A stretch of DNA of 64,000 nt, taken from the NCBI RefSeq assembly GCF_022808815.1, contig NZ_JAKZLC010000003.1, positions 372,001 through 436,000 on the forward strand, given 5' to 3'. Shown piece after piece: positions 9,940-10,565 of the stretch. This DNA is from Geothrix paludis (GTDB taxonomy: Bacteria > Acidobacteriota > Holophagae > Holophagales > Holophagaceae). Each line of letters begins with the position of its first letter. The stretch's first letter is position 1. The notes under the pieces were generated by a model. The model had not been told where the DNA came from, did not search any database, and saw only the letters and a list, made by a program, of their open reading frames with translations. Both the position numbers and the translations under genes were made by a program.

Positions 9940-9995
9940 GGCGGCGCCCTTTCGCATCTGGCCGTTCTCCGCCTTTCGCGGCGACCCATGCAGTC

Positions 9996-10199
9996 ACGGG
10001 GCTCGAACGGGTCCGCGGCGCCCTGCGGGCTTGCGTCCCCTGGCCTTGGGGGGGGGGGGGGGGGGGCCGGGCGCGGGGCGCGCCGACCGACGCGGGGGGC
10101 GGGGGCGCGGGGGACAGGGCATCAAGCCCTGTCTCCGCAAGTCCACTCGACGCTGGATCCTGGCCGCGCATGCGCGGCCGGGGCGGGTCCGAGCCCCGT
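9996..10199 (-). repeat. tRNA-Asp-tail-derived unit 2 (inverted T-arm copies around a GC-rich spacer)
   Basis: A 204-bp unit whose ends are inverted copies of the tRNA-Asp T-arm. acggggctcgaac (9996-10008) faces gtccgagccccgt (10187-10199). The right end extends to 10182-10207, matching 24 of 26 nt of the tRNA-Asp 3' end including its discriminator base. Inside are a run of 19 G (10048-10066) and a perfect 8-bp hairpin gacagggc-atcaa-gccctgtc (10113-10133). A flanking segment from 9961 is also shared with unit 1. No gene is visible. Confidence 0.65.
10048..10066. repeat. homopolymer run of 19 G
   Basis: Nineteen consecutive G on the plus strand inside the tRNA-associated unit. It may be a slippage-prone tract or an assembly artefact. 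Confidence 0.8.
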
Positions 10200-10241
10200 C
10201 AGCCCCGCCGTTCCCCCCCTTTCGTGCCGACCCATGCCGCC

Positions 10242-10351
10242 ACGGGGCTCGAACGCAGCCGCTGCGCCCTTTGGGCTTGCGTCTGCCGGTCTCGCTCCGG
10301 CGCCACATCAAGTGGCGCCTCTGCGATCCCACTCGCGGGTCCGAGCCCCGT
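10242..10351 (-). repeat. tRNA-Asp-tail-derived unit 1
   Basis: A 110-bp unit with ends acggggctcgaac (10242-10254) and gtccgagccccgt (10339-10351), inverted relative to each other. The tRNA-proximal end (10332-10358) is an inverted near-copy, 24 of 27 nt, of the T-arm plus acceptor strand of the adjacent tRNA-Asp (10395-10421). It contains hairpin ggcgccac-atcaa-gtggcgcc (10299-10319). A stretch from about 10207 (gccgttcc...gacccatg...cacggggctcgaacg...gggcttgcgt) is shared with unit 2 starting at 9961. Confidence 0.7.
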
Positions 10352-10361
10352 CCGCCCCAAA

Positions 10362-10395
10362 CGCCAAAAAGCGCCCGACTGGGCGCTTTTTGGCG
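10362..10395 (-). terminator. intrinsic terminator of the tRNA-Val/tRNA-Asp operon
   Basis: A 15-bp perfect inverted repeat (left arm 10362-10376, right arm 10381-10395, loop gact) begins within the encoded CCA end of tRNA-Asp. Runs of five A and five T occupy the stem, so it could stop transcription in either direction. Confidence 0.75.
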
Positions 10396-10467
10396 GGGCT
10401 GACGGGGCTCGAACCCGCGACCTCCGGCGTGACAGGCCGGCACTCTAACCGACTGAGCTACAACCCC
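10391..10467 (-). tRNA. tRNA-Asp (anticodon GTC), CCA encoded
   Basis: The minus strand reads a full cloverleaf: acceptor GGGGTTG pairing with CAGCCCC (one G-T pair), D-arm GCTCAGTCGGTTAGAG, anticodon loop CTGTCAC between CCGGC and GCCGG (anticodon GTC), T-arm GCGGGTTCGAGCCCCGT, discriminator G, then CCA at 10393-10391. It follows tRNA-Val by 22 bp on the same strand, with its terminator overlapping the CCA. Confidence 0.96.
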
Positions 10468-10489: not shown

Positions 10490-10565
10490 TGGTGGGCGAT
10501 GACGGGCTCGAACCGCCGACATGCTGCGTGTAAGGCAGCTGCTCTACCGACTGAGCTAATCGCCC
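10490..10565 (-). tRNA. tRNA-Val (anticodon TAC), CCA encoded
   Basis: The minus strand gives acceptor GGGCGAT/ATCGCCC, D-arm GCTCAGTCGGTAGAGC, anticodon stem GCTGC/GCAGC around CTTACAC (anticodon TAC), T-arm GGCGGTTCGAGCCCGTC, discriminator A and encoded CCA. A short perfect hairpin (caccagat/atctggtg) sits between its CCA and tRNA-Asp, perhaps aiding processing. A weak TTGACC (10610-10605, minus strand) upstream might be the -35 of the pair. Confidence 0.96.

Follow-up and report, generated by a model that had tools for sequence, protein, structure and literature searches.

The window, that is, the whole 64,000-nt stretch of Geothrix paludis DNA that was analysed, contains a tRNA-Asp(gtc) gene (10391-10467) next to a tRNA-Val gene (10490-10565), both on the minus strand. 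On this strand, tRNA-Asp is followed by a perfect terminator-like hairpin of 15 bp (10362-10395), an inverted repeat in the interval between tRNA-Asp and unit 1, then by unit 1 and finally by unit 2, all with the same orientation. The T-arm and tail of tRNA-Asp were the source of the copies that flank the units. In unit 1, the tRNA-proximal end is an antisense copy of the T-arm and some of the acceptor strand (10333-10358), complementary to tRNA-Asp at 10395-10420 with 24 of 26 nt matching. The covariance model R1 matched 10244-10348 with 78 bits, and its helices in this unit are P1, formed by the antisense and a T-loop copy, P2 with a TTGAT loop, and P3 (GCCC-AAA-GGGC). The sense copy of the T-loop and T-stem that closes P1 (10242-10254, inverted repeat) pairs with 10339-10351, and beyond it lies a spacer with a conserved TGGGTCG motif (10207-10241, direct repeat).

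At the tRNA-proximal end of unit 2 is an antisense copy of the T-arm and acceptor strand (10183-10209), complementary to tRNA-Asp at 10392-10418. Next come an extra hairpin module (10159-10182, inverted repeat), which is optional in that it was present or absent across orthologous loci, and a degenerate core (10009-10158) with a TTGAT-loop hairpin at 10113-10134. The sense copy of the T-loop and T-stem (9996-10008, inverted repeat) pairs with 10187-10199 and is followed by a spacer with the same TGGGTCG motif (9961-9995, direct repeat). Unit 2 is longer than unit 1 because of the extra hairpin and the degenerate core with its run of 19 G. The run itself (10048-10066) may be real slippage or a sequencing or assembly problem.

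Inverted T-arm copies around two gene-free units had been the core of the original prediction. The copies were present when their coordinates were re-derived from the inverted repeats, and no convincing gene was found within the units themselves. The predicted tRNA-proximal match of 24 of 26 nt in unit 1 was reproduced, but that in unit 2 was 26 of 27 nt instead of 24 of 27. The 60-80 bp thought to be common to both units is indeed shared, as part of a longer stretch of 86 nt with 81% identity (9961-10046 and 10207-10292). A T-to-C change in both T-loop copies had been taken as proof that the units descend from a single copy. This argument was weak, since 16 of the 58 first units that aligned well have the change, some of them behind other tRNAs; it affects the antisense base opposite U55, where a G.U pair is retained. 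Rfam at gathering and loose thresholds returned nothing credible in the window beyond the tRNAs. When tRNA-Asp and unit 1 were folded together as RNA, the z score against shuffles was -10.2. This value, together with similar units behind many tRNAs, excluded a chance origin.

It had also been proposed to search for further copies and to ask whether they lie 3' of tRNA genes and adopt the local tail. On all three points the expectation was borne out: units recurred in this genome and in its relatives, they sat 3' of tRNA genes, and their ends tracked the tail of the local tRNA. BLAST with the region detected more copies, each adjoining a tRNA gene, namely Pro(ggg), Pro(tgg), His and Arg(ccg). 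When the 3' flanks of the 45 tRNA genes were read, no fewer than 13 and perhaps as many as about 18 were found to carry antisense of the local T-arm, a count that is approximate because old copies decay. The tRNAs with units were Pro (three genes), Asp, Arg (two), His, Thr, Met (two), Ser (four), Phe, Cys and Leu, and a tail copy was found behind tRNA-Gln.

A single-unit BLAST query had matches in 36 of 60 relatives, nearly all Geothrix. Across the phylum, R1, which was built from alignment A2, matched 27 of 396 genomes (25 Geothrix and two from other Holophagaceae genera), and 70 of the 71 units detected by this model were directly 3' of a tRNA on the same strand. We also scanned 84,980 species genomes with an exact pattern that made no use of tRNAs. 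The scan gave 50 matches on 41 contigs, one of them a chance match. The contig titles of the others read Geothrix (fermentans, limicola, rubra, campi, fuzhouensis, oryzisoli and others), Holophagaceae or Acidobacteria; 43 of the 50 matches were directly 3' of a same-strand tRNA, and six more lay no more than 264 bases from the end of a contig. A complete genome of a different Holophagaceae genus (G152) carried young copies that R1 missed: behind Pro(cgg), a tandem unit about 195 bp long whose 25-nt tail is exact, and behind Ser(gct), a duplicated tail-terminator segment with near-perfect antisense. The tail copy extends through CCA in the Pro unit of G152 and in Cys and Met units, and the units of the window retain the T-loop and part of the stem only. 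Behind tRNA-Thr(tgt) of G152, the tail was duplicated exactly about 110 nt downstream, without an antisense copy. We concluded that the tRNA-Asp units are part of a Geothrix-wide system which is also present in other Holophagaceae. The literature that we searched held no description of such units in Geothrix or Acidobacteriota.

The layout of the units is antisense of the local T-arm first, a structured core next, and a sense copy of the T-loop or tail last. The antisense was specific to its locus. When tRNAs were shuffled among the 70 R1 matches with an upstream tRNA, the observed match level was reached in none of 20,000 shuffles, and T-stem antisense matched its own locus at 297 of 325 positions against a shuffled mean of 235 (0/20,000). 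Where species differ in the T-loop of Arg(ccg), their units carry the matching variant. In the 65 first units that lack the extra hairpin, the match was 0.92 at tRNA positions 47-48, 0.91 in the T-stem 5' strand, 0.88 in the T-loop, 0.71 in the T-stem 3' strand, 0.38 in the acceptor and 0.03 at positions 44-46. With shifts allowed, the linker antisense to positions 47-53 (the T-stem 5' strand and 47-48) matched at 6.93 of 7 (null 5.30) in a set of 58 units, a level inflated by their preselection at 13 or more of 16 matches, and the acceptor antisense matched at 4.28 of 7 (null 3.86). The acceptor contrast in the 65 first units is independent of this selection. The linker antisense to 47-53 is left unpaired in the unit's own fold. 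Among 35 deviations in the antisense, counts that are subject to the same preselection, 21 retained a G.U pair, and 16 of these 21 were at position 55 and may share descent. As far as sequence comparison can tell, near-exact antisense to positions 47-62 beside a decayed acceptor antisense points to selection for RNA pairing.

The units also carry a conserved structure. Across an alignment of 22 of them, the four helices (32 pairs) were paired in 97.4% of cells, a percentage biased upward because the structure was derived from the same sequences; slid structures used as a control gave 25-38%, and none of 500 shuffles reached the observed pairing. Double-sided changes, which are independent of that bias, were found at 15 of the 32 pairs, and templated correction between the palindrome arms could imitate part of this covariation. 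A U.G pair and an A.G mismatch were each present in all 22 units, and a tandem G.A / A.G at columns 21/60 and 22/59 was largely retained. Such conserved non-Watson-Crick pairs, combined with the structure, suggest an RNA rather than a DNA element, and the conserved features point to a transcribed RNA.

A comparable architecture exists in E. coli. RtT RNA has been known from this species since 1991 without a clear function, and the tyrT locus is noted for 178-bp repeats as well as RtT RNA. In E. coli tyrT we found a tail copy ATCCTTCCCCCACCACCA and an antisense GGGGAAGGATGAGAAGCTTCGA; in lysV and lysQ, the lysine tail and the terminator are duplicated, with 13 nt of exact antisense. The Rfam RtT model (RF00391) matches the units of all three, and P1 of its consensus is antisense T-arm against tail (GgGaaGGAU...AUCCuuCcC). 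Antisense in RtT was not described in the literature that we searched. The likeness to Geothrix covers the position 3' of tRNA genes on the same strand (in E. coli, the tyrT, lysT-lysQ and lysV operons), a P1 made from antisense T-arm and sense tail copy, in some Geothrix units an end formed by a copy of the local tRNA tail, a hairpin of the GCCCGAAGGGC type, and a tandem GA motif, which has been reported for RtT (PMC7657543). In E. coli, RtT is reported to be freed as a stable RNA from the transcript of its tRNA (PMC4986893). Geothrix differs in that many different tRNAs are involved, the antisense is near-exact and reaches position 47, the cores are different and the host belongs to another phylum. 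The Rfam RtT model at its gathering score matched no Geothrix unit tested, and for this reason the units were not filed as RtT members. From their sequences, they appear to be a greatly expanded variant of the RtT kind, RtT-like in build with no homology implied. A weak match to the RtT model elsewhere (G000:C4:162626-162700, 22.4 bits, below cut-off), with no listed tRNA nearby, was probably due to chance.

Other known elements were less similar. Spacer units at argV/argZ/argQ of E. coli K-12, which fall below the listing cut-off of the Rfam RtT model, have a GCCCGAAGGGC hairpin and, about 115 nt downstream, repeat the local tail exactly over 18 nt; unlike in Geothrix, a search for antisense T-arm found none there. 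They are possibly a further RtT-like unit. The 3' external transcribed spacer of leuZ (3'ETS-leuZ) is likewise a trailer RNA of a tRNA transcript, and in it neither antisense (11/19) nor tail copy (12/18) was above background. REP/RAYT palindromic elements resemble the Geothrix units as short structured intergenic repeats with several copies per genome, but the Geothrix units have no tie to a transposase and occur only behind tRNAs.

We consider it reasonably probable that the units are RtT-like tRNA trailer RNAs, in which pairing of the antisense with the T-arm, as opposed to P1, gates or acts on their own tRNA. This reading builds on observations of where the units lie and on which strand, of their conserved structure, and of antisense that is locus-specific and selectively conserved. 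Each unit would be transcribed as part of the transcript of the upstream tRNA, reading through the terminator-like hairpin, and would fold to a small RNA closed by P1, in which the antisense T-arm pairs with the sense T-loop or tail copy. Alternatively, the antisense would pair in the cell with the T-arm of its own tRNA. In the joint fold of tRNA-Asp and unit 1, a long hairpin between tail and antisense was preferred that would undo the tRNA, so that the two folds compete, on paper at least. The choice of fold may be the function, with the unit gating how its own tRNA folds or matures; once released, the unit may instead act on that tRNA as a small RNA. The units likely originated by duplication of tail and terminator at the tRNA 3' end, and the T-loop sequence, being nearly universal, would have allowed cores to pass from one locus to another on rare occasions.

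The original prediction had seen in the units a non-autonomous element that uses or mimics a tRNA tail as its terminal repeat. Read as a mobile element, it would insert behind tRNA genes and take up the local tail as terminal inverted repeat, with a putative enzyme such as a tyrosine recombinase acting in trans. Unit ends do track the local tRNA, and tail and terminator are duplicated around the insert at Ser(gct) and Pro(cgg) of G152. The cores at Arg(tct) of another genome (G009) are 93-94% like Pro cores, yet have Arg-specific ends, which is a clear jump between tRNA loci. Some movement therefore stood, as rare tRNA-to-tRNA jumps, but the mobile element as stated did not. For 38 of 58 cores, the nearest core at other loci was one behind the same tRNA (expected 14.8), and for 2 of 58 it was one from the same genome (expected 2.0). 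This comparison indicates inheritance with the locus as the rule, cores mostly tracking the tRNA locus, and clustering by genome at the expected level spoke against recent within-genome bursts. Reverse transcriptase was missing from 8 of 9 Geothrix genomes checked and Y1 transposase from six that carry units (G032, G063, G002, G015, G018 and G025). Both were missing in 6 of the 9 despite the presence of units, which ruled them out as general movers. Far from tRNAs the pattern scan gave the one chance match only, RNA-type non-Watson-Crick pairs were kept, and the architecture is that of E. coli RtT RNA. With this evidence, a mobile element is an unlikely explanation.

Orphan copies were rejected as proof of movement. 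At two of them (L075, tRNA-Pro(ggg), and L080, tRNA-Thr(cgt)), islands had apparently integrated into the tRNA, leaving only the tRNA tail upstream, and are located between tRNA and units; at another (L139) an IS element precedes the unit. The last (L141, positions 1200-2100, G009:C40) is a long palindrome around a terminator hairpin behind a Thr-type tRNA tail, on a contig that reflects an assembly artefact or else genuine fold-back. Palindromic repeats of other families were themselves inserted in units, one (GAGGAGGCTCCGACTCCGCG...) within units at L065, L067 and L082, the other (GACTCGGGCTCCGCCCTCGCCC...) in their T-loop copy at L092, L101, L105 and L111. Comparison of orthologous Asp loci in 30 genomes revealed module gains, tandem copies and deletions. 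The core or the entire unit was lost at orthologous loci in four genomes (G007, G064, G022 and G003), so that the unit is dispensable at those loci.

The units could also be a mutational by-product without function: template switching after fold-back at the terminator hairpin would copy the tail in both inverted and direct orientation, and the arms would then be kept matched by correction templated on the palindrome. Tail and terminator arms do form one long palindrome, tail-terminator duplications are seen in G152 and at E. coli lysV and lysQ, and the palindromic contig above is centred on such a hairpin. Nevertheless, acceptor antisense decays and antisense to 47-62 does not, the core sequence is conserved, and non-Watson-Crick pairs persist where correction would erase them, which makes this origin quite improbable. 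Scars of integrative elements, that is, attachment-site copies left by islands integrating at tRNA 3' ends, are hardly credible: islands do integrate at these tRNAs (the Pro and Thr cases above) and tail copies look like attachment-site duplications, but the kept T-arm antisense beside a decayed acceptor, an antisense copy as such and a common structured core at many tRNAs are not expected from them, and both islands sit between tRNA and units and did not generate the units.

Tentatively, and with considerable doubt, the trailer RNA reading could be widened to a class of tRNA-specific RNA switches across phyla, which would include E. coli RtT with its overlooked antisense; pairing of the antisense with the T-arm would then recognise the unit's own tRNA and set its folding, maturation or use. 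The RtT-type layout is now found in another phylum and behind many tRNAs at once, where natural variation reveals the part that is retained, namely antisense against the adjacent tRNA's positions 47-62. It yields a testable prediction, that a unit pairs with the T-arm of its own tRNA, through which the purpose of RtT-like RNAs becomes testable as well. These results suggest that tRNA trailers can be a conserved class of RNA rather than mere spacers.
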